A stretch of DNA of 64,000 nucleotides from Pontibacter burrus. Its GTDB lineage: Bacteria; Bacteroidota; Bacteroidia; Cytophagales; Hymenobacteraceae. This document shows, piece by piece, positions 484 through 61,211 of this stretch (within the stretch, counting starts at the first letter, position 1; the number at the start of each line of letters is the position of its first letter). Where the stretch lies: assembly GCF_010686685.1 (NCBI RefSeq), contig NZ_JAAGWD010000008.1, positions 1-64,000 of the forward strand. Direction: 5' to 3'. The position numbers and the translations under genes were made by a program. The notes below the pieces were generated by a model. It saw only the letters and a list, made by a program, of their open reading frames with translations. It had not been told where the DNA came from and did no database searches.

Positions 484-3400
484 ATGCAGCCATTTCAATT
501 AGGCAGAATGCTGCCTGTCCTTGTCCTATTTCTGGGACTATGGGCAAACAGCGCTGTCGCACAGGATTGTACGCCTGAAATCAGTACGCCTCAGGGAATA
601 TCGCTCTGTAACGGCGAAGTGCTTTTGCAGGCATCTGCAGCCACCTCTTATGCCTGGTCTACCGGCGAAACCACTTCAGCTATAAAAGTAACCAAACCCG
701 GTACTTACTGGGTTAAAACCACAACTGCCGAGGGCTGCGAAGGCACCTCAGAAAGTATAACTATAGCCGGTGCACCCGATGCCAGCATCACAGATCCTGA
801 ATACCCGGAACTCAACTTTACCTATTGCAGCTACTCCAGCAGTTCATCCGGGTTTAAGTTCACGCTGAACATAGAGAACACTTCCAAAACCAAGGAAACA
901 AACAAAGAATACCACATTAGCTGGGGTGATGGCAAAACCAGCACGTATGGCAAAAACTTCGACAGAGTAACACATACCTATACTGCCGGCGGCGGCTATG
1001 ATATCGTACTGACCGTAATTGGCGAAAACGGCTGTAGTACTACCACTTCCAAGCGTATGTTTGTGGGCAGCAACCCGGGACTAGGCATCTCTAGCGATGG
1101 TAACAACACACAGTGTGCTCCTGCTACTTACCGCTTTAAAATTACTGGTGTTGATGGCAACTCACCTGAAACAGTTTACACGTTCCAATTTGATGATGGC
1201 ACACCGGCTATTACTTACAAGCATGATGAGCTACCGGCAGACCGTTACATTTATCATACGTTTACAGAGACCTCAAAAAACACAGAATTTGGATTTACCT
1301 TAACCGGTTATGCCAAGAACCCATGTAGCTCGTCACGCGCTACCTTTTCTGGTATTAGAATCTCGAAAGGCCCGGAAGCTGATTTTGCAGTTGGTAATGG
1401 AACATCGTTGTGTATCAACCAGCCTGTTAACCTGCAGAACCTGACAAAAAGTGGCTATGACGCCACAAACAATACGGAAACTTACCAGAGCGAGTGGTCT
1501 ATTGTACCGGCAACCGGCTGGCGTTTCGTATCAGGTTCAGCTACTTCTAAAAGCCCTAGAATTGTATTCACCGAGCCTGGTAAATACAAGCTTACCTTAA
1601 CTGCTAAATCTCTGGATACCAACCTATCGTGTGGTTCGAGCAGCAAAGAGCGCGAAATTATAGTTGCTGCTCCTCCGGTAGCAGATTTCACCTTAGATCC
1701 TACCCCATCCATTAACTGTACCCCAAACACATTCAAAGCCCTAAATACCTCAACTGGCGATGGTGTAACCTACACCTGGCAGGTAATGCCGGCGGAAGGC
1801 TGGAGCTTTGCCAATGGCACTACGGCTACATCTGAAAATCCGGAATTCAATTTCGCGAAGGCAGGAGATTACACTATAAAACTTGTTGCAACCAACCTGT
1901 GTGCCCCAGCAAGCATAAAAGAGCAGAAAATAACCATACGCAATAAGCCTGTTGTTACGCTGCCTGCCAATGCCGTGTATTGCGGTCCGCAAACTATAAG
2001 TTTTACGTCAGCTAATGCAGCGCATAAACCAACTTACGATGCTCAATCCGGAACTATAACTGGCTACCGCTGGACAGTAACCGGCGGAAATGCAACGTTT
2101 GCAGAAGGCAGCAGCACTTCAGCTAACCCAACTATAGCCTTCCCGGAAGCTGGTTTATATACCGTTAGTGTTGTAGCTATAAATGAGTGCGGCGAATCAG
2201 AACCGGCAACGCAGCAGATTCGCATCGACGCCTTACCGGAATTGAAAGCCACTGCCGAAATGCCTGTACTTTGCAAAGGCAGCAGTACAACTATAGCTGT
2301 AACAGGTGCCGATACCTATACCTGGGCACCAGCTGATGGTTTAAGCGTAACCACTGGCAGCACAGTAACTGTAAAACCAACCAAAACTACAACTTATACT
2401 ATTACCGGTAAAAACAACGCTACGGGCTGTATCAGCACCACTACTATAACTATAGTTGTAAACGAGCCCCCGAAAGTAGAGCTGGTTGCTGATGTATATG
2501 AGATCTGCGTAGGCCAGGCACAGGCAGTGCTTACTGCATCCGGCGCAGACCGCTACGAGTGGTCTCCGGCTACAGGTTTATCAGCTACTACCGGGGCCAG
2601 TGTTACCGCTACACCAGCGCAAACCACAACTTATACGGTTACTGGATTTGATGATGAAACCGGCTGCAGCAGCACGGCACAGGTAACTATAAAAGTAAAC
2701 CCATTGCCAGTTGTTAGCGCAGGACCGGACATTACTGTTTGTAACAACCCGGTTCCGACCAAACTAGTAGGTAGCCCTGCAGGTGGTGTTTGGAGCGGCG
2801 CGCATGTATCGGCAGATGGTACCTTTACGCCTCCAGCCGAAACCGGCACTTTTACCTTAACTTATACTTACACCGACCCGAAAGGCTGCAGCAACTATAG
2901 CACCATGCAGGTTACGGTTAATGAAGCTCCGGTAGCGGATGCCGGTCAGGGTATAACCGTATGTTTGAACAGTGGCAGCTTTAACCTAAAGGCAACACTA
3001 GCCGGCGGAAAATGGTCAGGATCAACACTAGTAACAGCTAATGGTAAATTTACGCCATCAAAAGCAGGTGTTTATACCTTAACCTATACTTTCGGGGAAG
3101 GTAGCTGCGAGACAAAAGACCAGGTTATAGTTACTGTAAATGAACTACCTAAAGCCCCCAATGTTGCTGCGGCGGAGATTCTTTGCCCTGGCTTCGGCAC
3201 TACTTTGCAGGTACAAAACCCGGTAGGTAAGCTGGCCTGGTACGATGCTGCCACTGGCGGTAAACTTTTAGGCGAAGGCGCTACTTTTACAACTCCGGCA
3301 CTTGACAAAACCACCACTTACTACGTAGAAACTACGATTGAAGGCGGCTGTACCAGCGTGCGTACTCCGGTTAAAGTTACGGTTCGTCCGGCAACTCCGG

Positions 3401-6400
3401 CGCCAACGGTAGCTCCTGTTACCCTTTGCGGACCAGGCAGCGGCGCCACATTGGTAGCGCAAGGCAATGCCACTGTTTACCAATGGTTCGATGTGGCCGA
3501 AGGTGGTACCATGCTATTCCAGGGTCGTTCGTTTGGGATTGCATCTGTAAACGAGAGCAAAACTTATTATGTGCAGGCTGTTATTGATGGATGTATCAGC
3601 CCGAGAACTCCGGCAACGATAACCGTACTGGATGTGATCAGCAACAACATTATTGAGGCTGTAGCTGAGATCTGTGCGGGACAAACACCAGATCCGTTAG
3701 TGGGCTCCACTCCTATCGGCGGTGACAGCAACTATAGCTATTACTGGGAAATCAGCACGAAATCTGCCACGGAAGGCTTTAGTAAAGTGGAAGGCGCTAC
3801 TGGCAAAGACTACCAGCCGGGTGCGCTTACAGTACCAACCTGGTTCCGCAGAGTTGCAGCTTCATCGGTTTGCGCGCACGTATCGGAGTCGGTAAAAGTG
3901 AGTGTAACACCTGTTATCAGCAGCAACACGGTATCGGAAGATGCTACGTATTGCCTTGGCGCAACTATCGCCCAACTGAACGGCAGTCAGCCGACTGGCG
4001 GTAACAATAACTATAGTTATACCTGGGAAATGAGCACTACCGGCGAGAACGGAAACTATACAGCGGCTACCGGTATCAACACAGAACAGCACTATAAGCC
4101 GGGCACGGTAGATGTAACCACCTGGTTCAGAAGAAAAGTAACATCAGGTACTTGCCAGGTGAGCATCAGTCAGCCGGTAAAGATCACGATCTATAAACCG
4201 ATCACAAATAATACGATAGTAGGCGAACAGACCGTTTGCGCCAATGCCATACCGCAGGTGCTGGAAGGCAGCCAGCCGGAAAATGGCGATGGCAACTATA
4301 GCTACCGCTGGTACATGAGCACCGACGGCGAAAACTTTACTCTGGCAACCGGCCAGAACAACGGCATCAACTATAAGGTAGGCGCCCTTACCCGCACCAC
4401 CTGGTTTAAGCGCGAAGTAACCGGTGGACCATGCGATGCGAGAATTAGTAACACCATCAAAATTCATGTGAATCCGGTCATAGCCAGCAACATCATCTCC
4501 AAAGACCAGGTGATCTGTTTCGGTACTGAAGCTGCAGTGCTTACCGGTACAACGCCAACCGGCGGAGATGGTAACTATAGTTTCCGCTGGATGGTGAGCA
4601 CAACTGGTGCAAACGGTACTTACGCACCGGCTGCGGGTACTAACAACCTGCCAAACTATACACCGGGCGCTGTGGCTACCACCACCTGGTATAAGCGCGA
4701 AGTGCTTTCAGGTACGTGTGTGGATGTGTCGCCGGCGATAGAAGTAACGGTAGTGCCGCTTCCGGTGGCTCCTGCCGTGACGGGTATTACCATCTGCGAA
4801 GGCACCAAAGCGACACTCACTGTTTCGGCATCAGGTAACTATAACTGGTACACTGCTGCCAATGCCACGACACCTGTATTCAGCGGCCGTAGCTTCGAAA
4901 CGCCTGCACTGAGCGCCACTACAACTTATTATGTAGAAACGGTAAATGCCAATGGTTGCGGAAGCTCCGAGCGCACTGCCGTTACTGTTACGGTAAACAA
5001 AAACATCAGCAACAACAGCCTTATAGCGCCAACTGCAGTCATCTGCGCCGGACAAATGCCAGCATTAATTAGCGGAGCAGGCACAGGCCCGGAAGGCGGA
5101 AATGGCACCTATACGTACCGCTGGGAAAAGAAAACTGAAGGCGTAGATGCTGACTTCAAAACGATTGCAGGCGCAACTTCGGCAACTTACCAGCCCACAG
5201 CGCTTACTAAAACAACCTGGTTCCGCCGTGTAGTAATTTCAGGACCATGTGCTGAACATGTAAGCGAAGCGGTGAAAGTAGATGTATTGCCAGCCCTGGA
5301 GAATAACACACTTGCTGCCGCAACAGCAATCTGCGAAGGCGAAACGCCAGCTTTATTAACTGGTTCTGCGCCAACCGGCGGCAATGGCAGCTATACTTAT
5401 AATTGGTCTTTCAGTGAAAACGGTACATCCTTTACCGATATCGCGAACAGCAACGTGAAAGATTATCAGCCGAGCAAATTAACTAAAACTACCTGGTTCA
5501 AGAGAACTATAGTTTCAGGACCGTGCGCCAGATTAGAGAGCAATGTAGTGCAGGTGGTAGTGCATCCGGCTATAGTTGCCAACACCATTACCCCAACCGA
5601 AACTATAGTTTGCGAGAATGATAAACCGGGCATCATCAACGGCTCTAAACATGCAGGCGGCATAAGTGCCTTTACTTACCTGTGGGAAATGAGTACTGAT
5701 GGTGTAAACTTTAGTTCGGCGCCGGGCGTGAACAGCAACCAGTCGTACCAACCAGCTGCTTTAACAGTGCCGACCTGGTTCCGCCGCAAGGTTACATCAG
5801 GCAAATGCTTTGATTACTCGGCGGCTGTTAAGATCGATGTGAATCCAGTGATCGCGAGCAATACCATAACCGAAGAACAAATGGTGTGTGTGGGTGGTAC
5901 CCCTGCCCTACTGAAAGGTTCTACCCCAATTGGTGGTAATGGTACCTATAGTTACGAGTGGCAGTCGGCCACAACTAATTCACCTGCGGCATTCAGTACA
6001 GTGGGTACAGGTGTTAACTACCAGCCAAGTGCTTTGTCGGTAACAACTTACTTCAGACGAGTAGTTACATCAGGTGCGTGTTCGCATGTTTCGAATGTGG
6101 TAAAAGTAACAGTATCTCCGCAGATTACCAGAAACACGATCACAACTGATCAAACGATCTACTCGGGTCAGCGTCCGGCTCCGTTAACAGGCTCATTGCC
6201 AGCCGGCGGCGACAATACTTACAGGTACCTGTGGGAAGTGAGCACGGATGGTGTGAACTATAAAACAGCAACCGGCCTGAACGACGGCAGAAACTATAGC
6301 CCGGGCGTGCTGGATGAAAATACATGGTACCGCAGACGCGTGTTCTCGGGTGGTTGCGAAAGCATCTCCAACGCTGTCAAGGTTACGATTACGCCGTCTA

Positions 6401-9350: not shown

Positions 9351-9365
9351 GATTCTAACTATAGT

Positions 9366-9572
9366 TTAAACTTCCTCGGCTTTAAACCCGGCCTTTTCCA
9401 CAGTGTTTCTGATTTGATCTGCATTCAGCGTATCCGTCTGCACTTCCAGAATTTTGTCCGGGTTATCGGTATCAACCTGCCAGGTTACGCCTTCCAGTTT
9501 GTTCATGTGTGGCGTTACAGCTTTTACACATCCACCACAGTTTATATTGGTTTTGAATTTATAGGTCTTCAT
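9366..9572 (-). CDS. CopZ-like heavy-metal-associated (HMA) protein
   Basis: A 68-residue single-domain HMA protein that starts MKTYKFKTNI and carries the metal-binding motif N-C-G-G-C-V. Such proteins are cytosolic copper chaperones or copper buffers that hand metal to a P-type ATPase. It lies 27 bp downstream of copA on the same strand, so co-transcription is likely. An ATG three codons upstream (9581) is an alternative start; the chosen one matches the usual family N-terminus. The stop codon TAA is followed at once by ACTATAGTT. Metal specificity is inferred from the neighbour. Confidence 0.87.
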   Translation of the reverse strand: MKTYKFKTNINCGGCVKAVTPHMNKLEGVTWQVDTDNPDKILEVQTDTLNADQIRNTVEKAGFKAEEV

Positions 9573-9599: not shown

Positions 9600-11837
9600 T
9601 TATTTTAACTTTATAGTACGCAAGCGTAAACTATTCCCTACCACTGATACGGAGCTAAAGGCCATGGCCGCTCCTGCCAGCATCGGACTCAGCAGGAAAC
9701 CTGTGAATGGGAACAACAAGCCGGCTGCTACAGGAATACAGATCACGTTGTAGAAAAAGGCCCAGAACAGGTTCTGGCGGATGGTTTTTACAGTAGCTCT
9801 GGATAATTTAATGGCTGCTGCTACCTGTGTCAGGTCAGAACGCATCAGGGTAATTCCGGCTACGTCCATCGCAATATCGGTGCCCTGCCCCATGGCAATG
9901 CTGATGTTGGCGGTAGCCAGTGCCTGCGCATCGTTTATACCATCGCCCACCATAGCTACGTGCTTGCCATCTGCCTGCAGCTGCTTCACAAAGTCCGCTT
10001 TATCCTGCGGCATCATTTCAGCTTTAAAGTGAGTGATGCCTACCTGACGAGATACCGCTGCTGCTGTCTGGCTGTTGTCGCCGGTTAGCATGTATACCTC
10101 AATTCCGGCATCTTGCATGGCTTTTATACCATCCGCAGCGCTTTGCTTAATCGGGTCGGCTACCGCAAATACGCCAAGTGCTTGTGTGGCACCTGCAAAA
10201 TAGATCGCTGTTTTGGCCTCGTTCTGTAGTTTCACGATCTGCTCAGCCAGTTCTTCCGGTATAGTGATGCCGTGCTCCTGCAGTAATTTATAGTTACCGG
10301 CATAGTAACGTTTTCCGTTAAAGTCTGCCTCGATACCCATACCAGTCAGGCTGCTGAAGTAGTCGGGTTGCTGTACCTGTGCACCTGCTTCTTTATAGTA
10401 AGCATATACCGCTTGAGCAATCGGGTGCTCCGACTGAGCCTCCATCGAGTAAAAGTACGTTTCCAGTTGCTCGTGCTGCTGCGCGTTGTTAGCCCAGATT
10501 ACGTCGGTTACCGTTGGTTTACCCAAGGTTATTGTTCCGGTTTTATCCAGAATTACAGCATTTACTTCGTGGGCGCGCTCCAGGCTTTCGGCATCTTTAA
10601 TCAGGATACCGGTTTCAGCACCGCGGCCTACGCCCACCATAATAGCGGTTGGGGTTGCCAGGCCAAGCGCACAAGGGCAGGCAATTACAAGTACCGAAAT
10701 CATCGACAGGAAGCCTTCTGTTAAATACGCTTCGCCGCCCAGTATTATCCAGGACACTAAGGTGAGCAGCGCAATACCCAACACGATCGGCACAAATATT
10801 CCGGCAATTTTATCCACCAGTTTCTGAACCGGGGCTTTGCTACCTTGGGCTTCCTGTACCATTTTAATGATATGTGCCAGCATGGTTTCGCCACCGGTTT
10901 TTTTGGCAATCAGCTGCACGCTGCCTTTCTGGTTTATAGTTCCGGCATACACCATATCGCCGGGTTGCTTTTGAACGGGTAATGGTTCGCCGCTCAGCAT
11001 ACTTTCGTCCAGGTAAGTGGTTCCGGTTGCTACTTCACCATCTACAGGCACGCGGTCGCCAGGCAAAAGCAATACCCTGTCTCCTACCCGCACTTCTTCA
11101 ATCTTGATTTCTAATTCTGATTCGTCACGCAGAATACGCACAGTTTTTGGTTGTAGGCCCATTAGTTTTTTGATGGCTTCGGAGCTGCGGTTTTTGGCGC
11201 CCTCTTCCAGGTATTTACCTATCAGTATAAAGGCAATAATTACCGCTACAGCCTCGAAATACACATGCGGTTCCAGGCTCCGACTCAGAAAAAACTCAGG
11301 GTAAACAGTATTGAACACACTAAAAATGTAAGCAATACTTGTACTCAGGGCTACCAGTGTATCCATGTTGGCGCGCCCATGTTTTGCCTGTGCCCAGGCT
11401 CCGGTAAAGAAGCGCTGCCCAGCCCATAGTAAAATTGGGGTGGTAAATACCAACATGGCCCAGTTGCCCCACGCAAAGTGCCCGTGGAAGAACATGCCCA
11501 ATACAAATACCGGCAATGCCAGCAAACAGGCAACTATAGTTTTGGTCTTCAGTGTTTGCAGGGCCTTGGCTTCGCGGGCCTCCAACTCTTCCTGCGTCTG
11601 TTTTTCTATCAGTATATCAAAACCGATTTCCTGCACAGTTTCGCGCAATTGAGCCGGGTTAACTATAGTTGGTTCATAGGTTACCTGCACGCTTTTACCT
11701 GCAAAGTTCACGTTTGCTTCGGATACGCCTTCACGGTGACGCAGCATGCTTTCTATACTCGATGCGCAGGAGGCACAGGTCATGCCCTCTACCGGGTAGG
11801 TATCTTTTTTATAGTTGGTTTGTGTTAGTGTTGCCAT
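9600..11837 (-). CDS. Copper-translocating P1B-type ATPase
   Basis: 745 residues, typical length for CopA. It has an N-terminal HMA domain with GMTCASC (Cys21, Cys24), then transmembrane helices, an actuator domain, the transport motif CPC (about residues 387-389 in IACPCALG), the phosphorylation motif DKTGT (Asp about 430), the SEHP nucleotide-binding motif and the hinge MVGDGIND. These define a P1B-1 ATPase that pumps Cu(I) out of the cytoplasm using ATP. It is the first gene of a two-gene operon with the HMA protein. Several TATAGTT and AACTATAGTT sites fall inside the gene and encode Thr-Ile-Val. Silver export is a possible second activity. Confidence 0.95.
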   Translation of the reverse strand: MATLTQTNYKKDTYPVEGMTCASCASSIESMLRHREGVSEANVNFAGKSVQVTYEPTIVNPAQLRETVQEIGFDILIEKQTQEELEAREAKALQTLKTKTIVACLLALPVFVLGMFFHGHFAWGNWAMLVFTTPILLWAGQRFFTGAWAQAKHGRANMDTLVALSTSIAYIFSVFNTVYPEFFLSRSLEPHVYFEAVAVIIAFILIGKYLEEGAKNRSSEAIKKLMGLQPKTVRILRDESELEIKIEEVRVGDRVLLLPGDRVPVDGEVATGTTYLDESMLSGEPLPVQKQPGDMVYAGTINQKGSVQLIAKKTGGETMLAHIIKMVQEAQGSKAPVQKLVDKIAGIFVPIVLGIALLTLVSWIILGGEAYLTEGFLSMISVLVIACPCALGLATPTAIMVGVGRGAETGILIKDAESLERAHEVNAVILDKTGTITLGKPTVTDVIWANNAQQHEQLETYFYSMEAQSEHPIAQAVYAYYKEAGAQVQQPDYFSSLTGMGIEADFNGKRYYAGNYKLLQEHGITIPEELAEQIVKLQNEAKTAIYFAGATQALGVFAVADPIKQSAADGIKAMQDAGIEVYMLTGDNSQTAAAVSRQVGITHFKAEMMPQDKADFVKQLQADGKHVAMVGDGINDAQALATANISIAMGQGTDIAMDVAGITLMRSDLTQVAAAIKLSRATVKTIRQNLFWAFFYNVICIPVAAGLLFPFTGFLLSPMLAGAAMAFSSVSVVGNSLRLRTIKLK

Positions 11838-17057: not shown

Positions 17058-17106
17058 AACTATAGTTAACATAAGATAACAACTACAGACACACAAAACT
17101 ATAGTT
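17058..17106. repeat. Two exact AACTATAGTT palindromes in a divergent promoter region
   Basis: Exact copies lie at 17058-17067 and 17097-17106, 39 bp apart, in the short region between two divergent small genes. A half-site AACTATAA follows at about 17121. Such spacing could suit protein binding, but the motif is so common here that chance placement cannot be excluded. Confidence 0.7.
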
Positions 17107-18667: not shown

Positions 18668-18936
18668 AGTTTTGGCGTTAAGGTTTATACAAATGTACGC
18701 GCCTTTGCGACCGGCTTTAGTTAAGGCTTCGTTAAAGAATGTTAAAGAAAAGTTAAAGTTTGCCTCCACGGCACCAATCATTCTGCAACTACTGTATTAT
18801 TGGTGTATCTATAGATAAAATTGTAACTTATACACAAGTGCTGCCCACTATCTGGTAACTATAGTTTTAACTGTGTGATGTGTTAAATAAAAGTTAAAAT
18901 CAGGCGGCGTTGAAGTTTAAGGAGTAAATTTGATAC

Positions 18937-23677: not shown

Positions 23678-23905
23678 GTCCCCTTCTCTTTTATAGTTCT
23701 TCAGTATGATTTTTTAAGCTGCGCTGCTCTTTTTGTCATTATGTAAAAACCATGCCAAAAACTAAACTAATGATGAATACTGAATGAATATTAATTGCAA
23801 AAATCTGGTGGACAACATCTTAAGAAGAGTGAATAGGTGAACTATAGTTGTAAACTGATTTGAGAACTATAGTATGCGTGAGGGATGAAGCGGTTGTTTG
23901 AGCTC

Positions 23906-25216: not shown

Positions 25217-25322
25217 CCCGAACCAGAAACTATAGTTTAAAAGGGCATGTTATCTGAGCTGCAACCCATGGAACCGGAACAGTTCTTGCAGTTGCTCAGC
25301 TAAATGCCAATTCTTAAGTGAT

Positions 25323-32992: not shown

Positions 32993-33718
32993 ATGAAACG
33001 AACATCTAGAATGATACCCCTGCTGGCAGCTGCTATAGTTTGCACAACCCTGCCGGCCTGCGAACGCACACGCAACGTAGAGGAAACTGATACAGTAACA
33101 GTAACGGAGGATAGTACACGGGACCGGGATAGAGACACAACTATAGTTGCCCGTACTGGCGAAACTGCCGAGCAGAAACTGGAAAGACTCCGCTCCTGGA
33201 TGAATGAAAAGGCAGACCGCGCCGATACCTCCATCCGCAAAGAATGGCCTAAAACACGCGAAGAACTGCGCCGCATCAACTCTGATCTGGAGCGTAATAT
33301 CGACAGCCTTTCAGCAGATTCGAAAGAAGAATACAGGCAGCTGAGAGCACGCTACCAGCAATGGGAAGAGCGGCAGGAACGACGTCAGAACCAGCCTTTG
33401 GACCCTGCAAAACTACGCACCTGGGAAGACCAGCTTTTGCGCGAGTACAAAGACATCAGCAACATAAAACCTGCAAATATGCGCGAGGCATACCTCACCT
33501 TTATGGGAACCGTACGCACCAAGCACCGCAACTGGACCCAGAACGACTGGGATTATGTAGATTATGTTTACAGTACCCTGAATGACAGACGGGGTCAGGT
33601 AGAAACACAGCTAGGCACAGCGGATAAACTAAAGATTCGCACCCTGCAAGCCGAATACCTGGCGCTGGAAGGCGCTGCAGACACACGCAGCCTGGTGAAA
33701 GGCGTAGATGGAAACTAA
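32993..33718 (+). CDS. Lipoprotein with coiled-coil region, unknown function
   Basis: 241 residues with a lipoprotein signal (lipobox LPAC, Cys near 23). After a Thr/Asp-rich spacer, residues about 57-145 are charged and predicted to form helices with coiled-coil character (Glu/Arg-rich, for example YQQWEERQERRQNQ). No recognised domain. The stop codon TAA (33716-33718) starts the motif half-site AACTATA that begins the terminator stem. Confidence 0.75.
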   Translation: MKRTSRMIPLLAAAIVCTTLPACERTRNVEETDTVTVTEDSTRDRDRDTTIVARTGETAEQKLERLRSWMNEKADRADTSIRKEWPKTREELRRINSDLERNIDSLSADSKEEYRQLRARYQQWEERQERRQNQPLDPAKLRTWEDQLLREYKDISNIKPANMREAYLTFMGTVRTKHRNWTQNDWDYVDYVYSTLNDRRGQVETQLGTADKLKIRTLQAEYLALEGAADTRSLVKGVDGN

Positions 33719-34305: not shown

Positions 34306-34325
34306 TAAGGGTGATTTGGGTTAAA

Positions 34326-35351: not shown

Positions 35352-35444
35352 CGTTATCCTGTGTTGAGTAAGTGCACCTATAGTTGGTAAAACATACTAA
35401 CACTACGGCGACAACCAGCACTTGTTAACTATAGTTACAATAGC

Positions 35445-40168: not shown

Positions 40169-40188
40169 CACTTTTGAAACTATAGTTT

Positions 40189-41122: not shown

Positions 41123-41776
41123 ATGAAAAGTAAACTTATTGCTGTTGCCTTATTTGTTGCAACTGCCTTTAATGCACAGGCGCAGGAAACGACAACAACT
41201 GTTACCGCTTCCAATGTTAAACCAACTGCCGGAAACGTTACAACCGAAGTTTTATTTAACGACTTAGGCAACATCAGCCTGAACAATGGTTTGTTGCGTG
41301 CACGTTATTTTACAAGCGACCAGTTTGCTTACAGACTAAGCCTGGGTGTAAACTACAACTATGATAAAATTGCTGACGACGCCCACTCACGCGTTTTCGG
41401 TATTTCGCTTGCACCTGGTATCGAAAAGCACTTTGCTGGGACCAACAGACTGTCACCTTATATTGGCGCTGAACTTCCTATCCGCATGCAAAGCGCAAAA
41501 ACAGAAACTGAAAATTCAACTATCACCGGAGCAACTTCAACCAATGGCGCTAACAGAGGTTATTTCAGTGTTGGCCTGAATGCAGTAGCCGGTGTTGATT
41601 TCTATTTTGCAAAAAATTTCTACGCTGGCGTGGAATTAGGCACAGGTCTGGCTTATTTTAAAAATGCAGATATTGAAGTAGAAAGCCCTGGTTTTGATAA
41701 TAAAACAGAAGGTTTCCACAGCATTCGCTTCGGTCAGTTTGTGAATGGCGGTATCCGTGTTGGTTACGTTTTTTAA
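41123..41776 (+). CDS. Outer-membrane beta-barrel protein
   Basis: 217 residues with signal peptide (MKSKLIAVALFVATAFNAQAQ). Short Thr-rich spacer, then barrel-like strands (GLLRARYFTSDQFAYRLSLGVNY, RGYFSVGLNAVAGVDFYF) and an aromatic C-terminus (VGYVF). Fits a small eight-strand type barrel of unknown role. Stop TAA runs into ACTATAGTTT, an exact motif copy (41776-41785). Confidence 0.85.
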   Translation: MKSKLIAVALFVATAFNAQAQETTTTVTASNVKPTAGNVTTEVLFNDLGNISLNNGLLRARYFTSDQFAYRLSLGVNYNYDKIADDAHSRVFGISLAPGIEKHFAGTNRLSPYIGAELPIRMQSAKTETENSTITGATSTNGANRGYFSVGLNAVAGVDFYFAKNFYAGVELGTGLAYFKNADIEVESPGFDNKTEGFHSIRFGQFVNGGIRVGYVF

Positions 41777-41797
41777 ACTATAGTTTATAGTTTACCA

Positions 41798-41865: not shown

Positions 41866-44127
41866 TTATTTAAACATGCCTTTCAGCTTGGCAAGTTTAG
41901 TCTGGAAGTCGTCCATTGGCTCTTCTTCGCGTTTGCCGCCTTTGCTGTTGTTGCGGTCTCTGTTGCCACCAACTGGTTTCGGGGCAGCAGGGTCGCCTTT
42001 CATACTCAGGGAGATACGTTTGCGGTTCACGTCCACTTCCAACACAGTTACTTCTACTTTCTGCCCTACTTTCACCACATCATGCGGGTTGTTTATAAAG
42101 CGGTCCGATAGGTGACTCACGTGTACGAGTCCATCCTGGTGAACCCCAACATCTACGAAAGCTCCAAAAGCAGCCACGTTGGTCACGATGCCCGGCAGTT
42201 TCATGCCTTCGCGCAGGTCTTTTATCTCGTTCACGCCTTCGGTAAAGCTAAAGGCTTCAAAGGTCTGACGCGGGTCGCGGCCTGGCTTGGCAAGCTCGCT
42301 CAGGATATCCTGCAGGGTTGGCAACCCTACCGTATCGGTTACATATTTCTTCAGCTCTATCTTTTTGCGCAGTTCTTCGCTCTTCATCAGATCCTGCACA
42401 GTTACGCCCAGGTCTTTTGCCATCTGCTCCACAATCGGGTAGCTTTCCGGGTGCACAGCTGATGCATCCAACGGGTTCTTTGCATCACGGATTCTTAAGA
42501 AACCTGCTGCCTGCTCAAACGCTTTGTCGCCTAGGCGGGGCACTTTCTTCAGCTCGGTACGCGTACGGAACGGGCCATTCTGGTTACGGTAATCTACTAT
42601 ATTCTGTGCTAAGGCAGGGCCAAGACCTGAAACATAGGTCAGGAGTTGCTTACTGGCCGTGTTCACTTCCACACCTACGGCGTTCACGCAGCTCATTACC
42701 ACATCATCCAGCGAATGTTTCAGCGCTGACTGGTCCACATCGTGCTGGTACTGCCCTACACCAATGCTTTTCGGGTCGATCTTCACCAACTCTGCTAACG
42801 GGTCCATCAAACGGCGGCCAATCGAAACGGCTCCACGTACGGTTACATCCTGATCCGGAAACTCTTCGCGTGCTACCTCTGATGCACTATAGATAGATGC
42901 ACCACTCTCGTTCACCATTACCACCATTACAGTTGACGGCAGTTTCAGGCTCTTTACAAAAGCTTCGGTTTCGCGGCTGGCTGTTCCGTTACCTATGGCA
43001 ATGGCTTCTACCTCAAAGCGGGTAACCATGTAGCGTATCGCCTGCGCTGCTTCTTCCTGCTGGCGCTGGCCCGAGTGGGCGTAAAGGGTTTCGTTGTGCA
43101 GCAGCTTGCCTTGCTTATCCAGCACTACCGATTTCACCCCTGTTCTGAAACCCGGGTCCAGAGCCAATACTGTTTTCTGGCCAAGCGGTGAGGAAAGCAG
43201 CAACTGGCGCAGGTTATCGGCAAAAACACGAATAGCTTCTTCGTCGGCGCGTTTCTTAGAGCTCAGGCGCACTTCGGTTTCCATGCTCATTTTCAGCAGG
43301 CGCTTGTAGCAATCTTTGGCAGCCAGTTTCACTTGTTCCGATGCCGCGTTATTGCCCTGTACAAACATGGCTTCCAGTTTTGCCAGTGCAGCTTCTTCGT
43401 CGGGTTGGGCGCTCAGCATCAACACCATCTCGCTTTCGCCGCGGCGCATGGCCAGCACACGGTGCGATGGCGCTTTTTCAATCGGCTCTTCCCACTCAAA
43501 GTAGTCTTTAAACTTCTGCCCTTCTTCTTCCTTACCCATGATCACACGGCTCTTGAACACACCCTGTTTCTCGAACAGCTGGCGCATGGTAGCACGTGCT
43601 TCGGCATTTTCGTTCATCCACTCCGCCATAATATCGCGGGCACCGGCAAGGGCTTCGGCAGTATCTTTTACTTCTTTCTCTTCTGAGATAAAGTTGGCTG
43701 CTTCGGCTTCCACATCTATATTTTCCTGCGCAAAGATGCGCTCGGCCAGTGGCTCCAGGCCTTTCTCGCGGGCTATAGTTGCCTTGGTTCGGCGTTTTGG
43801 TTTATAAGGCAGATAGATATCTTCCAACACGGCCATCGTTTCAGCAGCCATGATCTGCTCTTCCAGTTCCGGTGTCAACTTCTCCTGGTCCTTGATCGAC
43901 TTCAGAATGCTTTCGCGGCGTTTATCTAGCTCACGCAGCTGCTCCAGTCGGTCGCGTATCGCGGCGATCTGCACCTCGTCGAGCGAGCCGGTAACTTCTT
44001 TTCGGTAGCGGGAGATAAAAGGAACCGTAGCACCTTCGTCCAGCAACGTTGCTGTAGCTTCGATCTGCTTTATCGTAATGTTCAGCTCCGAAGCGATCTT
44101 CAGCAAATGTGTGATGTTAAAATCCAT
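41866..44127 (-). CDS. tex: Tex-family RNA-binding transcription accessory protein
   Basis: 753 residues, close to the usual 750-780. N-terminal Tex region (ATVPFISRYRKEVTGSLDE), a YqgF-like RNase H fold (LALDPGFRTGVKSVVLD), helix-hairpin-helix region with YVSGLGPALAQNIVDYR, and an S1 RNA-binding domain (GIVTNVAAFGAFVDVGV ... VGQKVEVTVLEVD) before a basic, Gly/Arg/Lys-rich tail. Cytosolic, conserved; influences transcription in other bacteria. Confidence 0.95.
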   Translation of the reverse strand: MDFNITHLLKIASELNITIKQIEATATLLDEGATVPFISRYRKEVTGSLDEVQIAAIRDRLEQLRELDKRRESILKSIKDQEKLTPELEEQIMAAETMAVLEDIYLPYKPKRRTKATIAREKGLEPLAERIFAQENIDVEAEAANFISEEKEVKDTAEALAGARDIMAEWMNENAEARATMRQLFEKQGVFKSRVIMGKEEEGQKFKDYFEWEEPIEKAPSHRVLAMRRGESEMVLMLSAQPDEEAALAKLEAMFVQGNNAASEQVKLAAKDCYKRLLKMSMETEVRLSSKKRADEEAIRVFADNLRQLLLSSPLGQKTVLALDPGFRTGVKSVVLDKQGKLLHNETLYAHSGQRQQEEAAQAIRYMVTRFEVEAIAIGNGTASRETEAFVKSLKLPSTVMVVMVNESGASIYSASEVAREEFPDQDVTVRGAVSIGRRLMDPLAELVKIDPKSIGVGQYQHDVDQSALKHSLDDVVMSCVNAVGVEVNTASKQLLTYVSGLGPALAQNIVDYRNQNGPFRTRTELKKVPRLGDKAFEQAAGFLRIRDAKNPLDASAVHPESYPIVEQMAKDLGVTVQDLMKSEELRKKIELKKYVTDTVGLPTLQDILSELAKPGRDPRQTFEAFSFTEGVNEIKDLREGMKLPGIVTNVAAFGAFVDVGVHQDGLVHVSHLSDRFINNPHDVVKVGQKVEVTVLEVDVNRKRISLSMKGDPAAPKPVGGNRDRNNSKGGKREEEPMDDFQTKLAKLKGMFK

Positions 44128-48322: not shown

Positions 48323-49786
48323 ATGACACTGGTAGCAACCCTGGTAATCGTAATCTATAGTTTCTGCCTGGCCTTTATTTTCTGCTACAGCCTGGTGCAG
48401 CTACATCTTACCTGGCTATACTTAACCCGAACCAAACAGCCCCTCAAACCAACTATAGCATTGCAGGAGTGGCCTACCGTAACAGTGCAGTTACCGGTTT
48501 ACAACGAGCGCTATGTAATTGAGCGCCTGCTTGATGCCGTAACAGCACTCGAATATCCTGCTGAAAAACTTCAGATCCAGATTCTGGACGATTCCACTGA
48601 CGATACGTCCAACCTTATAGTTGAGAAGCTTAAAGCGTTAGCTTACACAGGGATCAATATTGACCATATTCGTAGAAGTGACCGGACCGGGTTTAAGGCT
48701 GGTGCCCTGCAGCATGGTTTGCAGACAGCCACCGGAGAGTATATCGCCATTTTTGATGCTGACTTTACCCCCTTTCCTGACTTCCTGAAACAAACTATAG
48801 TTGCCTTTACACAGCCTGAGATTGGGGTGGTGCAAACGCGTTGGGGACATCTGAACAGAAATTATTCGCTACTAACCCGCTTGCAGGCCTTTGGCCTGGA
48901 TGCCCATTTTACGATAGAACAACAAGGGCGGAACAACGGAAACTACTTCATCAACTTTAACGGCACGGCAGGCGTGTGGCGCAAGACCTGTATTGTAGAT
49001 GCAGGTGGCTGGCACGCCGATACCTTAACCGAAGACCTGGACTTGAGTTACCGTGCCCAGCTCAGGGGCTGGCAGTTTGTTTACCAGCAGCACACAGAGA
49101 CACCAGCAGAGTTGCCAGCTGCCATGAGTGCCCTAAAGTCGCAGCAATACCGCTGGACCAAAGGTGCCGCCGAAACCGCCCGTAAGCACCTGAAAAACGT
49201 GCTCACTTCTTCCAAAACTATAGTTCCGAAGCTGCATGCCACTTTCCATCTGCTGAATAGCGGTGTATTTGTGTGTGTCCTCCTGACTGCGTTGCTTTCC
49301 GTACCGATCCTGTATATTAAGCAGGCTATTCCTCAATTAAGCTGGCTATATAATCTTGGAGTACTTTTAATTGGCAGCATGCTGTCTTTAACAGGGTTCT
49401 ACTGGATTGCTTCCGGTGTAAGCGGCAAACGATCCATCAAACATTTTATCCCTGATTTTCTGCTGTTCCTGAGCATGTCGATGGGGATGGCGCTGCATAC
49501 CAGTGTGGCGGTGCTGGAAGGGTATCTGGGCCGTAAAACACCATTCGTCCGCACACCAAAATATAATATTGTGCAGGCGCAGGACAGCTGGCGCAAAAAC
49601 CGTTACACGCTGCCGGGCATTGGTTTACTCAGTTGGGTTGAGGGGCTGCTGGTACTTTACTTTTTGTGGGGCATCTGGCTAGGCTGGCACTTCCAGGATT
49701 ACGGGTTGCTGCCGTTCCATAGTATGCTTGCACTGGGCTTTGGACTGGTATTTTGTTACTCCATCATACACAACCGGAAAGCATGA
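48323..49786 (+). CDS. Membrane GT2 glycosyltransferase with QxxRW motif
   Basis: 487 residues. Transmembrane helix at 5-30, cytosolic GT-A domain with ILDDSTDDT, FDADF, TEDLDLSYR and QQYRWTKG (QxxRW, about residue 272), then several helices at the C-terminus. This is the layout of processive or cellulose-synthase-like enzymes. The product could be a beta-glucan or a glycolipid; no partner subunit is seen. Follows the previous gene after 11 bp and its stop overlaps the next start. Confidence 0.9.
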   Translation: MTLVATLVIVIYSFCLAFIFCYSLVQLHLTWLYLTRTKQPLKPTIALQEWPTVTVQLPVYNERYVIERLLDAVTALEYPAEKLQIQILDDSTDDTSNLIVEKLKALAYTGINIDHIRRSDRTGFKAGALQHGLQTATGEYIAIFDADFTPFPDFLKQTIVAFTQPEIGVVQTRWGHLNRNYSLLTRLQAFGLDAHFTIEQQGRNNGNYFINFNGTAGVWRKTCIVDAGGWHADTLTEDLDLSYRAQLRGWQFVYQQHTETPAELPAAMSALKSQQYRWTKGAAETARKHLKNVLTSSKTIVPKLHATFHLLNSGVFVCVLLTALLSVPILYIKQAIPQLSWLYNLGVLLIGSMLSLTGFYWIASGVSGKRSIKHFIPDFLLFLSMSMGMALHTSVAVLEGYLGRKTPFVRTPKYNIVQAQDSWRKNRYTLPGIGLLSWVEGLLVLYFLWGIWLGWHFQDYGLLPFHSMLALGFGLVFCYSIIHNRKA

Positions 49787-51117
49787 GCGGTAACAGAAAA
49801 ACATCTGCAGGTTACGCAGTGCTGGCTGTTTCGGGATTGCTTTACGCAGCCCTGGCGTATGCAACACCACGCGAGAATTTTACGCAATTGCTTTTATTGT
49901 TTACCAGTTGCTTTGCCGGGTATGTATACGTCGTGAATGTCCGGTTCAATGTGTGGCATGGCATTGCCGCGGCAATCGTTTTCAGGCTTTTGCTGTTGGT
50001 ATCCATTCCCAAATTGTCCGACGACTATTTCCGGTTTATCTGGGACGGGCGCTTGCTTGCTGCCGGCATTAACCCTTATCTACATTTACCGGGCTATTTT
50101 GTGCAACAGGGCGCAACTATAGTTACAGGCATAACCGAATCGCTTTACCTGCAGCTCAACTCCCCCAATTACTATAGTGTGTATCCGCCTGTTTCGCAGG
50201 CAGTTTACTGGCTGGCTGCTATAGTTGCGTCCGACAGTATGCTTGGCAGTGTGGTGGTGATGCGCGTTGTTCTGTTATTGGCCGAAATAGTGAACATACT
50301 TCTGCTGCTACGCATGCTTCGCAAAATGGGCCTGCCTGATAACCATGTTCTGCTTTACGCCTTAAACCCGCTCGTGATACTGGAACTGACCGGCAACCTG
50401 CATTTTGAGGCGCTGATGCTTACGTTTATACTGCTCGGGCTTTACCAATTGTTTTACCACCGTTGGTTCTGGGCGGGCGGTGCTTTTGGGATGGCCATTG
50501 GGGTTAAGTTGTTGCCTTTGCTGTTTCTGCCGCTGGTATGGCGAAAGCTGGGCCATATGCGTTTCTTTTACTTTGTGGCGGCGCTCGGCCTTACCCTCCT
50601 AATTTGTGCATTACCACTCATTAACTCCGAAGTGATCAGCCATTTCTGGAGTAGCCTGGACCTGTATTTCCGGAAATTTGAGTTTAATGCCAGCATCTAC
50701 TATTTACTGCGCTGGCTTGGCATTGAATTGACAGGTTACAACCAGATCGCCGTGATCGGGCCCATGCTTTCGGCAGTAACCTTTGTGGCCGTTTGCTGGC
50801 TTGCTCTAGTTAAAAGTCTGGGCTCCGTCAAACGCCTGATCGGTTACATGGCCGTGTGCCTCTCTATTTACCTGCTGCTGGCTACAACTGTGCATCCTTG
50901 GTACATCACAACGCTGGTGGCGCTTACTGCCATGAGCCATGCCCGCTTTGCTATGCTGTGGTCTGGTATGGCCATTCTCAGTTATGCAGCTTACCGCACC
51001 GCTACCTACTCAGAAGACACAGCGCTTCTGATACTGGAATATACGCTGGTGCTGCTGTGGCTGCTGGTAGAACTATACCTATATCGCCGGCGCCGACAGC
51101 ATGCCAATTTAAAGTAG
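49783..51117 (+). CDS. GT87-like (DUF2029) membrane glycosyltransferase
   Basis: 445 residues from the ATG at 49783, which overlaps the preceding stop in ATGA, a classic sign of translational coupling. About ten hydrophobic helices; conserved WDGRLLAAGINPY and YYSVYPPVSQ segments are typical of polyprenol-phosphate-mannose-dependent membrane mannosyltransferases. The DPM1-like enzyme encoded first in the operon could make its donor lipid. Ends 1 bp from a convergent gene without a terminator between. Confidence 0.85.
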   Translation: MSGNRKTSAGYAVLAVSGLLYAALAYATPRENFTQLLLLFTSCFAGYVYVVNVRFNVWHGIAAAIVFRLLLLVSIPKLSDDYFRFIWDGRLLAAGINPYLHLPGYFVQQGATIVTGITESLYLQLNSPNYYSVYPPVSQAVYWLAAIVASDSMLGSVVVMRVVLLLAEIVNILLLLRMLRKMGLPDNHVLLYALNPLVILELTGNLHFEALMLTFILLGLYQLFYHRWFWAGGAFGMAIGVKLLPLLFLPLVWRKLGHMRFFYFVAALGLTLLICALPLINSEVISHFWSSLDLYFRKFEFNASIYYLLRWLGIELTGYNQIAVIGPMLSAVTFVAVCWLALVKSLGSVKRLIGYMAVCLSIYLLLATTVHPWYITTLVALTAMSHARFAMLWSGMAILSYAAYRTATYSEDTALLILEYTLVLLWLLVELYLYRRRRQHANLK

Positions 51118-51118
51118 C

Positions 51119-52817: not shown

Positions 52818-53954
52818 ATGATTTACCGTTGGCTGGTTGTGCTCCTGTTGTTGCTTCCGGCAAAGCTATTGGCACAGTTGCCCGAGCCGGGTTGGCTACA
52901 AAACGAGCGGCAGGCACAGCTCATGCAGCAGGCTATTGAACTATACAGTTGCATTGCCGATGTAAATCAGTGGTACACCCTGCCAACCGACCTGCAATTA
53001 AGCCCCGGCGACACCAACCAACATGTACCTAAACTGCAACACAACCTACTGCTAACCAAAGACCTGCAACCAGATCACGCGCTACCTACCACCATTTACG
53101 ATACGCTTATAGTTAGTGCAACTATGAAGTTTCAGCAGCGCCATGGCCTGAAGCCCAGCGGATTAATCGGACCTAAAACGATAGCTGAGCTTAACGTACC
53201 ACCTGCCCGACGCCTGCAGTTACTCCGGGATAACCTGCAACGCTGGATAACTACGATGTCCTGTACGCCAAAACCAGCTATAGTTATCAATATTCCGGCT
53301 TTTGAACTATATGTGGCAGATAGCAGCGAAGTATTGCTGCAAATGAAAGTGATCACAGGCAAACGGAAAACACCAACTTACCAGAATAAGACAGTACTCC
53401 AATCCATAGTCGTGAACCCGACCTGGAACCTGCCCCGCTCTATAGCTGTGAACGAGATCGTACCCATTCTGCGCCGTAACCCGAATTACCTGTACAAACG
53501 CAACATGCGTGTATACCTCGATGGCAGGCAGATTAACCCCTGGCGCGTGAACTGGAAAGAAGTGAACAGCAGCAACTATAGTTACCAGATAACCCAGCTA
53601 CCCGGCCGGCAAAATGAGCTGGGCGGACTGAAATTTCTGTACGACAGCAAGGCCGACCAGTATATGCACGATACACCTAAGAAAGAGCTATTTAACTACT
53701 TTCCACGCGATTTCAGTCATGGGTGTATCCGGCTGGAGAAGCCTTATGAACTGGCCATGTACCTGTTGCAGCATCATAATAAAAATTCAGAAGCGAAAGC
53801 AAAAGAATTGCTTAGCACCTGGAAGCCCAACAACTACTTGCTCGTAAAAAAGACCATGCCTTTGTACATTATTTACCAAACCGCTTGGGTTGACCAATAT
53901 GGGCTGGTGCAGTTCCGTGAAGATGTATATGGTTATGAAAAGCTGAATCTATAG
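52818..53954 (+). CDS. L,D-transpeptidase (YkuD family)
   Basis: 378 residues with a signal peptide (about 1-20, AKLLAQ). A peptidoglycan-binding-like region with MKFQQRHGLKPSGLIGPKT precedes the YkuD domain, which has the catalytic motif SHGCIRL (Cys303) and VVNPTWNLP. Such enzymes form 3-3 cross-links or attach proteins to peptidoglycan. The frame ends AAT-CTA-TAG; TAG is part of CTATAGTTA, which also contains the stop of the convergent gene. Confidence 0.93.
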   Translation: MIYRWLVVLLLLLPAKLLAQLPEPGWLQNERQAQLMQQAIELYSCIADVNQWYTLPTDLQLSPGDTNQHVPKLQHNLLLTKDLQPDHALPTTIYDTLIVSATMKFQQRHGLKPSGLIGPKTIAELNVPPARRLQLLRDNLQRWITTMSCTPKPAIVINIPAFELYVADSSEVLLQMKVITGKRKTPTYQNKTVLQSIVVNPTWNLPRSIAVNEIVPILRRNPNYLYKRNMRVYLDGRQINPWRVNWKEVNSSNYSYQITQLPGRQNELGGLKFLYDSKADQYMHDTPKKELFNYFPRDFSHGCIRLEKPYELAMYLLQHHNKNSEAKAKELLSTWKPNNYLLVKKTMPLYIIYQTAWVDQYGLVQFREDVYGYEKLNL

Positions 53955-55067: not shown

Positions 55068-56117
55068 TTAAGACACTGTCTGGCCGCCGCAACTCGAACC
55101 GGCTCCTGCCGTGCAACCATAGCAATGCTGGTTCAGCACAATACTGCGGTTATTCAGGACCTGTAGGTCAAAATCGCGGATGTGTTGCGGCGCAGTTGGT
55201 GCTACGCGAAGTTCAAGCATCTGGTTAAAGTCGCAGTCGTACAAAAAGCCATCCCACCCCACCGAAATGGTGTTGCGGCACATCACGTTGGCAGCTGCAG
55301 ACGGGTTAAAGGCATCCACCAGCTTCTGCATATAGCTCTCATAGTTACCACTTTGCAGCAAATATTCCAGGTAACGACTTATGGGCAGATTGGTAATGCA
55401 GAACAGGTTATTAAAATCAATCCCAAATCCGGCTTTCAAGCGGCGTTTAAATTCGGCTTCCAGAGTTTGCTGCGCTGCCGGCAAAAAAGCTCCGGATGGA
55501 TTATAGACCAGATCCAGCGTTAAACCTGATCCTTCACGTCCATAACCTACTTCATTCAGCATTTGCAGCGCTTTTACAGATTTCTCAAACACACCTTCGC
55601 CACGCTGCGCATCGGTACGGCTGGCAGCAAAATAAGGCAACGACGATACCACCTGTACCTTGAGCTGCTTGTAGAACTCCGGCAAATCGTGATATTTCGG
55701 GTTCGCCAAAATAATGGTCAGGTTGCAGCGAACTATAGTTTGCTTGCCCAGCTTCGAGAGCTCTTCCACAAACCATCGGAAATCCGGGTTCATTTCTGGT
55801 GCGCCACCGGTAATGTCAACTATAGTTAGCTCAGGGTTCCGAGCCAGCGCATCCAGGCACAGCTGCATGGTTTCTCGGGTCATAATCTCTCGGCGGTCCG
55901 GGCCGGCATCAACATGGCAGTGGCGGCAGGTCTGGTTGCACATTTTACCCACATTTACCTGCAGTATAGTTGCACCGGTAGGTTTGAGCGGCAATAGGTT
56001 GTGCTGCGCTAGTTTCTCAGCAAATGCCGGAAACTGTGCCCCCTGCTGCAGCACTGTCAGCTGAAAACCGGCGTCTGCCAGCTCGTGGTATTGTTTTTTA
56101 AGCGAAGTTACCGCCAT
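55068..56117 (-). CDS. arsS: ArsS-like radical SAM protein
   Basis: 349 residues. Radical SAM cluster CNQTCRHC (Cys60, Cys64, Cys67) binds the [4Fe-4S] cluster; GGAPEMNP and the C-terminal DUF3641-like part with YDCDFNQMLEL and HCYGCTAG-GSSCGG are typical of the arsenosugar biosynthesis ArsS family. Reported members attach the deoxyadenosyl group to a methylated arsenical. The gene follows the CMD gene after 2 bp. Confidence 0.88.
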   Translation of the reverse strand: MAVTSLKKQYHELADAGFQLTVLQQGAQFPAFAEKLAQHNLLPLKPTGATILQVNVGKMCNQTCRHCHVDAGPDRREIMTRETMQLCLDALARNPELTIVDITGGAPEMNPDFRWFVEELSKLGKQTIVRCNLTIILANPKYHDLPEFYKQLKVQVVSSLPYFAASRTDAQRGEGVFEKSVKALQMLNEVGYGREGSGLTLDLVYNPSGAFLPAAQQTLEAEFKRRLKAGFGIDFNNLFCITNLPISRYLEYLLQSGNYESYMQKLVDAFNPSAAANVMCRNTISVGWDGFLYDCDFNQMLELRVAPTAPQHIRDFDLQVLNNRSIVLNQHCYGCTAGAGSSCGGQTVS

Positions 56118-56119
56118 GC

Positions 56120-57997: not shown

Positions 57998-57998
57998 G

Positions 57999-58128: not shown

Positions 58129-58133
58129 ATACC

Positions 58134-58898: not shown

Positions 58899-58990
58899 AC
58901 GTAGCTAAAAGTAAGGCCTGCTGTGGCTTCGGAACTATAGTTTTGATGGCAAGATAGGAAACTATAGCAAAACCAGAAAACAGCTATAGT

Positions 58991-59212: not shown

Positions 59213-59214
59213 CT

Positions 59215-60674: not shown

Positions 60675-60686
60675 ATGTAAGTACAT

Positions 60687-61211
60687 CTATATTAGTATAC
60701 CAACAGTGCAATTAATTGTTTAGCGCGTAGTAATATTTTTGAGCAAATAACTGCTCAGAGCAAGTACAATATTGTACAATTCGTGTTCCTTATTTCCCCA
60801 TAGGCAATCTGGTTTATAGTTTGTTTGCAGCGCCTGCATTGCTATTCAGTTATTTAAAACTATAGTTTAGCTTATCTGCACCATCCGGTTAAGCAGCAAA
60901 ACCGAAACTATAGTTTACCCTGAAGCTGTCTTCATAAAGTTCAAATTCGTGTGCTATATTTATGACTTGTAAACTATAGTTAGCTGTCAATAAGTTAGAG
61001 CAGCCACTGCCGCATATGTTACAATTAAAAAGAGTCGAAATTTTTATGTTGCGCCAAAAGCTATAGTTGAACCAGCTATAACGATACATAACACAGGCCT
61101 CCTGAACCCAGGCTTGTTTTAAAACGGGGCGCAAAGTTACAGAAAAGCTACGAACTAAGCTCCAAAAGCCTTAAATTTGAGTTCTGTTGATTCACTAAAC
61201 CCTACAAGAGC
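60687..61211. other. Gene-free stretch with dense motif copies
   Basis: About 525 bp before topB without a credible gene. Three exact AACTATAGTT (60858, 60906 and 60972) lie within 125 bp, plus AAGCTATAGTTG near 61060. An open frame on the minus strand (60889-61134) only reads NYS where the motif falls and is not supported. The end holds the topB start region. Confidence 0.65.

Follow-up and report, generated by a model that had tools for sequence, protein, structure and literature searches.

The origin of highly iterated words such as HIP1, the highly iterated palindrome (HIP) GCGATCGC of cyanobacteria, is an open question, and in cyanobacteria the word, the methyltransferase and the phylogeny are hard to disentangle. 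Excerpts of Elhai (2015, PMC4390886) link highly over-represented cyanobacterial words to methyltransferases. For DNA uptake sequences (DUS), excerpts of Frye et al. (PMC3630211) describe eight dialects with a conserved CTG core, and a passage of PMC2397512 reports that DUS spacing matches the size of conversion fragments; a passage of PMC7811141 puts the average spacing of uptake signal sequences (USS) at about 1 kb. The present work concerns an iterated word of Pontibacter, noticed as the palindrome AACTATAGTT in the window, the 64,000-nucleotide stretch of Pontibacter burrus DNA analysed here (assembly GCF_010686685.1, contig NZ_JAAGWD010000008.1, positions 1 to 64,000). We show that Pontibacter genomes carry a short oriented word with a TATA core, iterated genome-wide and spelled in clade-specific dialects (TATAGTT, TATACTT, TATACCT). 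New sites of TATAGTT and TATACTT arise faster, and existing ones disappear more slowly, than those of matched control words, with no preference for either chromosome strand. This one genus offers three strong spellings together with bilingual, apparently lapsed and wordless genomes, of which many are sufficiently related to be aligned, and methylation, uptake, selected binding and biased repair become directly testable in it by the presence or absence of genes.

In the window, 29 exact copies of AACTATAGTT lie within positions 2448–60981, a count reached by none of 100 dinucleotide shuffles (mean 0.15, maximum 1). CTATAG occurs 131 times, against Markov expectations of 17.4 (order 0), 12.8 (order 2) and 46 (order 3). 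The preliminary description, made from the letters of the window, had reported at least 29 10-mers against about 0.1 expected and about 130 CTATAG cores against about 18, and both figures were reproduced. An order-4 model expects 7.7 copies of the 10-mer, a value obtained by training on the window itself, so that the motif contaminates the model. Chance, composition and Markov models of order 0–3 underpredict the counts and were rejected as their source. The feature is not limited to the 64-kb window either: the whole 4.31 Mb genome contains 1300 copies of AACTATAGTT (0.3 per kb) against 9 of the mirror word TTGATATCAA, which has the same composition and is also a palindrome. Like a HIP, the palindrome is many-fold over-represented genome-wide, in genes and in spacers.

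The palindrome, taken as the basic unit in the preliminary description, turned out to be the symmetric maximum of something smaller. The basic unit is the oriented TATAGTT, and the 10-mer is its two-sided form. Of 45 variants of AACTATAGTT with one mismatch, 32 had the change at position 2 or the position mirroring it, and 3 had it within TATA. Flank profiles gave the base before TATAGTT as C (0.56), T (0.30), G (0.11) or A (0.03); outside TATAGTT and the palindromic arm the flanks carried little or no information. Five sampled regions held 94 head-to-head TATAGTT pairs 3 bases apart. A mobile repeat, such as a repetitive extragenic palindrome, the end of an insertion sequence or a miniature inverted-repeat transposable element, was rejected for want of a longer conserved unit or conserved flanks. 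The earlier characterization of the palindrome as genome-wide and similar to HIP1 or uptake sequences, and not a mobile element, is upheld.

Words besides the three 10-mers introduced below were counted in 5–120 kb per genome (in G031 also in 400 kb), not in whole genomes. Per 100 kb, TATAGTT numbers 348 in the window and 320–358 in the 40-kb tex regions of four sister genomes. Over 120 kb the same density is 323 in G064, 329 in G031 and 248 in G065; twenty stretches spread over the G031 chromosome (400 kb) give 258. Extrapolated from the values of G031 (258) and of the window (348), there would be roughly 11,000 to 15,000 copies of TATAGTT per genome.

The 10-mers AACTATAGTT, AAGTATACTT (the TATACTT spelling, with C and G swapped relative to AACTATAGTT) and CAGGTATAGC (the TATACCT spelling) were counted in the whole genomes of 50 Pontibacter. 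AACTATAGTT is present 1087–1477 times in five genomes (G000, G018, G031, G064 and G065), 330 times in G027, 232 in G033, 104 in G071 and 0–28 times in the other 42. The count through the genome and its relatives, which had been proposed as a check, thus sets the 1300 copies of the P. burrus genome against 0–28 in all but seven of the 49 other Pontibacter. AAGTATACTT is found 82–259 times in 20 of the 50 genomes, including G071 at 183; outside these 20 it numbers 120 in G033, 80 in G027 and 5–39 in the other 28. CAGGTATAGC, counted on both strands, reaches 559–1472 in all 12 members of one supported clade and 19–134 in the other 38 genomes. G027 and G033 are therefore mixed genomes, bearing TATAGTT and TATACTT together. 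Eleven of the 50 have none of the three 10-mers at strength; among these, weaker TATA-core words were seen in G069, TATACC(C), and G068, CTATATA, and a small TATACTT excess in G007. As a separate observation, genome size is greater where a strong word is lacking: the mean is 5.71 Mb for those 11 genomes and 4.59 Mb for the other 39 (Mann-Whitney p 4e-6, from rounded sizes and uncorrected for relatedness). A tandem array of five CAGGTATAGC copies at a 13-base period was also noted at G059:C1:405473-405534.

The dialects follow phylogeny around a fixed core, as those of DUS and USS do, TATA being common to the three main words. By their identical tex genes, genome G065 belongs to P. populi and G016 to P. 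aquaedesilientis; the tex protein of the window (41866–44127, minus strand) is 91% identical to that of P. populi and 88% to that of P. aquaedesilientis over the best segment. The tex tree unites the two mixed genomes with the AACTATAGTT genomes in a clade (100/100), which G071 adjoins at a weaker 85/65. In another tree, built on 40,436 columns, G033 branches off outside all the others (support 88) and G027 groups with G000/G018 (92); the tex tree places G033 and G027 otherwise. No comparable excess of AASTATASTT was found outside Pontibacter in 371 genomes of the order, where the maximum was 121 copies and genomes with at least 50 had no more than about twice the count of the mirror word. Within the order, and as far as tested, spellings of the TATA-core family are confined to Pontibacter; outside the genus, whole-genome counts covered AASTATASTT and, in 22 genomes, AACTATAGTT, and unrelated words were sought only in loci of 13–22 kb.

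In orthologous alignments, TATAGTT was kept identical 1.4–2.8 times as often as matched words, and TATACTT sites in TATACTT genomes 1.9–3.9 times as often. Rates of gain and loss were taken only from sites gaplessly aligned in three genomes, with the sister and the first aligned outgroup agreeing, and the control words were matched in composition and lacked TATA. The rate pools are not independent, as lineages share outgroups and, for the 18 of 190 conversions given below, partly history. In TATAGTT lineages 79 of 349 sites were lost against 293 of 890 control sites (ratio 0.69, 95% interval 0.55–0.85), and 11 of 275 possible sites were gained against 222 of 16297 (ratio 2.9, 1.6–5.4). The TATACTT lineages behaved in the same way, with losses of 58/154 against 206/420 (0.77, 0.61–0.96) and gains of 7/119 against 103/5461 (3.1, 1.5–6.7). 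The consensus CTATAGTT had a loss ratio of 0.51 (0.37–0.69), and of 0.34 (0.15–0.75) between genes. Gains arise from several different near-misses. No clear near-miss depletion pointing to a single mutation source was seen: TATAATT and TCTAGTT stood at 0.67 and 0.62 of their level in TATACTT genomes, and other near-miss words were mostly near or above 1, TATACTT itself excepted. Of the 18 gains in all, 14 were one-step; no imported tracts were seen around the new sites, in a sample too small to test. The two sister genomes G031 and G065 differ in retention (between-pair Fisher p 0.0023): G065 lost 33 of 124 sites (control 69/258, ratio 1.00) and G031 11 of 106 (control 69/262). This suggests that retention of the word has recently been switched off in P. 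populi, which is 88% identical to G031.

Sites also change spelling in place. In G031, G064 and G065 pooled, TATACTT became TATAGTT at 18 of 190 sites, compared with 6 of 665 control-word sites undergoing the identical C-to-G change (p 3e-8). The same was observed in G031 alone (7/67 against 3/230, p 0.0015) and in G000 and G018 (6/51 against 2/171, p 0.0022). In TATAGTT lineages this conversion is about tenfold that of the control. The loss ratio of TATACTT in G031, G064 and G065 was 1.44 (1.28–1.61), with TATAGTT the commonest destination, and when these genomes were polarised with G033, TATACTT was gained at 0 of 316 sites (control 186/12735). In the mixed genomes TATAGTT is lost as fast as control words, with ratios of 1.19 (0.98–1.45) and 0.99 (0.82–1.19), and there is a tendency for TATACTT to be retained (0.73 and 0.75, intervals including 1). 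Pooled TATACTT sites of four TATACTT genomes were still found at orthologous positions at 59 of 147 sites in G027 and 68 of 151 in G033, as against 26 of 148 in G064; the remaining pure TATAGTT genomes had fewer still. Since the mixed genomes share these sites far more than the pure TATAGTT genomes do, the common ancestor was probably bilingual, with both TATAGTT and TATACTT. G-to-C conversions were counted at 10 of 113 sites in G033 and 15 of 113 in G027; as the trees disagree on these two genomes, some of these conversions may in fact have happened in the TATAGTT lineages, in the opposite direction. The decay ratios of both mixed genomes call for equal care, and the disagreement allows different numbers of switches to pure TATAGTT.

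The placement of the words was studied with open reading frames (ORFs) that are mechanical longest-first calls, not annotation. Of the 29 window copies of AACTATAGTT, 14 are coding, 12 intergenic and 3 at ORF edges. The preliminary statement that copies lie in genes and spacers holds to this extent, without evenness between the two, as spacers hold the word at about five times the density found in genes (CTATAGTT in the window, 6.3 per kb between ORFs against 1.34 within). TATACTT is even among convergent, tandem and divergent spacers (5.52, 5.75 and 5.62 per kb), and TATAGTT is raised in both convergent and divergent ones (10.6 and 9.9, tandem 7.2) and in neither alone; a promoter or terminator element was rejected for want of a matching bias. 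Within genes, TATAGTT runs opposite to the gene 271 times and along it 184 times (TATACTT, 137 and 165). This imbalance is read as the cost of an in-frame TAG, because CTATAGTT oriented along the gene is absent from exactly the frame that would give one. Codon preference was rejected, the word being found in more than one frame and on both strands and being densest in spacers. The chromosome strands are balanced, with TATAGTT at 381:388 in the 40–64 kb regions and at 518:514 in the twenty 20-kb stretches of the complete G031 chromosome, which have GC skew of both signs. A role like that of Chi or of the FtsK-orienting polar sequences (KOPS) was set aside because of this lack of replication-skewed orientation.

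Between genes, sites are Poisson-placed and independent of one another, at 3.5–6 per kb. With palindromic pairs merged, pairs 8–60 bp apart numbered 89 for TATAGTT (76.6 expected) and 31 for TATACTT (31.8 expected), and site-free spacers numbered 78 (78.9 expected) and 152 (153.3 expected), respectively. The twenty stretches of G031 all contain TATAGTT, at 11–87 per stretch (mean 51.6, variance 267). The lowest of them, L216 (G031:C1:2387001-2407000), has 11 TATAGTT and no 10-mer in 20 kb, and is possibly recently acquired or unusual DNA.

The independence of sites, the lack of strand or spacer context, the directed exchange between spellings and the neutral decay after loss favour locally biased conversion, in which a putative sequence-specific DNA protein decides the surviving variant at each site; this is our tentative choice. 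A DNA-binding protein, probably a symmetric dimer, would read the half-site AASTA. When a word and a near-miss meet in one duplex, in mismatch repair or in a recombination intermediate, the strand carrying the protein's word would be favoured. The conversion would be local and motif-directed, with a logic comparable to that of very-short-patch repair, but it would build a whole word. A shift in the specificity of the protein would rewrite the genome site by site, as from TATACTT to TATAGTT, and on loss of the protein the words would decay neutrally. The wider picture, of a cellular protein that makes its own word beat near-misses, with clades re-spelled, bilingual intermediates still alive and no need of DNA methylation or uptake, is offered with somewhat more reserve. 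Of the roles listed in the preliminary description, a mutation- or repair-driven sequence comes nearest to this proposal; plain mutation bias fails, as shown below. If local drive were true, motif-specific biased gene conversion would act in bacteria as an evolutionary force able to respell sites by the thousand without each of them having to be beneficial.

Several results weigh against biased conversion by such a protein. The proposed driver has no assigned gene. Slower loss is less certain for some forms of the word: the loss ratio of TTATAGTT is 0.66 (0.44–1.00) overall and 0.92 (0.31–2.68) between genes, and that of the AACTATAGTT 10-mer is 0.44 (0.17–1.14), with 4 of 19 lost. Among the five TATAGTT genomes taken singly, only in G031 does the interval of the loss ratio exclude 1 (0.39, 0.22–0.71); those of G064, G000 and G018 include it. 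G065 has a ratio of 1.00 despite 1124 palindromes, so that a recent switch-off is needed to explain it. The exchange of spellings is not uniformly directed, as the TATACTT loss ratio in G000/G018 is 1.12 (0.92–1.35), not significantly faster than control, although TATAGTT is again the commonest destination. Polarised within TATAGTT genomes, TATACTT was gained at 10 of 549 sites (ratio 1.4, 0.7–2.6), and TATAGTT reverted to TATACTT at 3 of 308 (control 0/788). The uneven density of TATAGTT among spacer types (10.6, 9.9 and 7.2 per kb) and its spread of 11–87 per stretch count on the same side; by the latter, Poisson placement holds between genes and not between stretches. As the gains are few (11 and 7) and a ratio of 0.51 is also expected of weak selection, conversion and selection are not separated by these rates.

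A rather unlikely but serious alternative is that the words are dialects of a DNA uptake sequence. Here a surface receptor would prefer word-bearing DNA, and biased uptake with recombination would accumulate the word by molecular drive. Clade-specific spellings with a conserved core, the excess in spacers, the retention of sites and the lack of strand bias would all fit. The words are also scarce in likely acquired DNA: around methyltransferase genes they number 85, 73 and 77 per 100 kb in TATAGTT, TATACTT and TATACCT genomes, against 343, 250 and 147 near tex in the same three dialects. For this comparison 37 of 54 methyltransferase loci were used (left out were 4 in mixed genomes, 10 in genomes lacking a word and 3 adjacent to loci already used), some of which overlap and whose GC is lower than that of the chromosome. 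However, the intergenic sites are Poisson-placed within 8–60 bp at 3.5–6 per kb, with neither the roughly 1-kb spacing that imported fragments would impose nor any sign of saturation at one per fragment, and the word is short and partly palindromic. The competence gene ComEC (PF03772) is present in 50 of 50 genomes, as uptake would require, but these include all the wordless ones (receptor and pilus genes were not searched). ComEC thus does not track the word, and its presence was discarded as an uninformative correlate. ComEC matches with an in-frame stop were seen at G009:C76:160505-161305 and G022:C1:2771217-2771876; the word is nonetheless at full strength in G009.

Weak selection for the binding sites of an architectural (nucleoid-associated) protein is likewise a serious rival but, in our view, unlikely. 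It would account for the slower loss of consensus sites (0.51), for the word's presence in all twenty G031 stretches and for the dyad form. It would also call for an individual benefit at roughly 11,000–15,000 copies, in genes and in all types of spacer, at sites with no spacing preference between genes. Eleven relatives manage without the three main words at strength.

A methylation-linked HIP, in which an orphan methyltransferase and methyl-directed mismatch repair would create and keep the words, is highly improbable. The methyltransferase target named as a leading candidate in the preliminary description is weakened by G060. This genome has TATACTT at 214–242 per 100 kb and no match to PF01555, PF00145 or PF02086 (other methyltransferase families were not searched, apart from PF02384). 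Its two PF02384 matches are weak (E 7e-5 and 4.5e-4, in frames of 394 and 290 aa) and just over the family cut-off; among these four families, no clear cognate methyltransferase of the kind expected for a HIP was found in G060. PF01555 was present in 4 of 10 genomes tested, and the 6 lacking it include four of the five TATAGTT genomes. PF00145 was found in 23 of 50 genomes, the 27 without it including the strong-word genomes G060, G030, G010 and G017, and PF02086 in 13 of 50. In favour of methylation, cyanobacterial over-represented words are tied to methyltransferases in excerpts of Elhai (2015, PMC4390886), all five TATAGTT genomes carry some PF00145 gene, and PF02384 is above cut-off in 50 of 50 genomes, some matches being only weak. 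The cyanobacterial model further predicts saturation near one site per kb, and TATAGTT is found at 2.6 per kb in the 400 kb of G031 and at 3.5 per kb in the window. A HIP1-style methyltransferase thus seems not to be needed, on the evidence of G060 and four families.

Pure mutation bias or composition, by which the word would be made more often and be otherwise neutral, is also very improbable: it would explain gains at about three times the rate of control words, but it fails because loss should then equal that of the control and is 0.69 (0.55–0.85) for TATAGTT and 0.51 (0.37–0.69) for CTATAGTT, and base composition and Markov models of order 0–3 miss the counts.

The exact copies of AACTATAGTT in the window lie at 2448–2457, 4009–4018, 4573–4582, 5505–5514, 5601–5610, 9357–9366, 11532–11541, 11661–11670, 17058–17067, 17097–17106, 18857–18866, 23840–23849, 25228–25237, 29379–29388, 33139–33148, 34324–34333, 35427–35436, 40178–40187, 41776–41785, 48793–48802, 49216–49225, 50115–50124, 53574–53583, 55731–55740, 55818–55827, 58933–58942, 60858–60867, 60906–60915 and 60972–60981. 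In the copy at 34324–34333 the TAG is the stop codon of the minus-strand ORF 34326–35351. All six copies that could be aligned to P. populi did so without a gap inside the word; those at 33139–33148 and 48793–48802 have an orthologous copy in P. populi (locus L001), and at the site orthologous to 50115–50124 P. populi has GACTATAGTT. Over positions 1–64000 the oriented TATAGTT is found 112 times on the plus and 111 times on the minus strand, the 29 palindromes being counted once per strand. Two other words of the window (1–64000) stand out: CTAG falls far short of its order-1 expectation (38 copies against 247), and TCCGGA is 2.5-fold over-represented.

In the open-licence PubMed Central literature, AACTATAGTT was met, among the matches listed, only in papers on malaria by title, AAGTATACTT together with 'palindrom' was absent, and searches for highly iterated palindromes, also with Pontibacter and with Bacteroidetes, gave, among the matches listed, no report of this word. 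In distribution and turnover the word behaves like the HIPs of cyanobacteria and the DUS dialects of Neisseriaceae. Among described systems, HIP1 and the alternate HIPs of cyanobacteria are similar: they too are short words that reach a palindromic maximum and recur in the genes and spacers of a whole chromosome; related genomes spell them differently, and some are wordless. The Pontibacter word differs in its AT-rich TATA core and oriented seven-letter unit, in its strength in G060, which lacks three methyltransferase families and has weak matches to a fourth, and in its 2.6–3.5 words per kb, Poisson-placed between genes, with bilingual genomes and site-by-site exchange of spelling. It is set apart from the HIPs because of a strong genome with no clear methyltransferase and the lack of a set point at one per kb, and the case argues against methylation as a general requirement.

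With the DUS of Neisseriaceae and the USS of Pasteurellaceae the word shares clade dialects around a fixed core, retention, an excess in permissive DNA and the lack of strand preference. It is denser, shorter and partly palindromic, its role in uptake would be putative, and it is set apart from DUS because it has no fragment-scale spacing. Chi and KOPS are likewise over-represented short oriented words with species-specific spelling. Chi sites and KOPS are skewed along replichores, whereas the Pontibacter word is not strand-skewed (518:514 in G031, 381:388 in the TATAGTT regions). Vsr, the very-short-patch repair enzyme of E. coli, corrects one T:G mismatch in one context. It is comparable as a sequence-specific enzyme that picks the surviving strand of a mismatch and so shifts word counts genome-wide, and differs in that the Pontibacter gains come from several different near-misses. 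The Pontibacter word is therefore filed as a 'highly iterated genomic word', a member of neither the HIP nor the DUS family.

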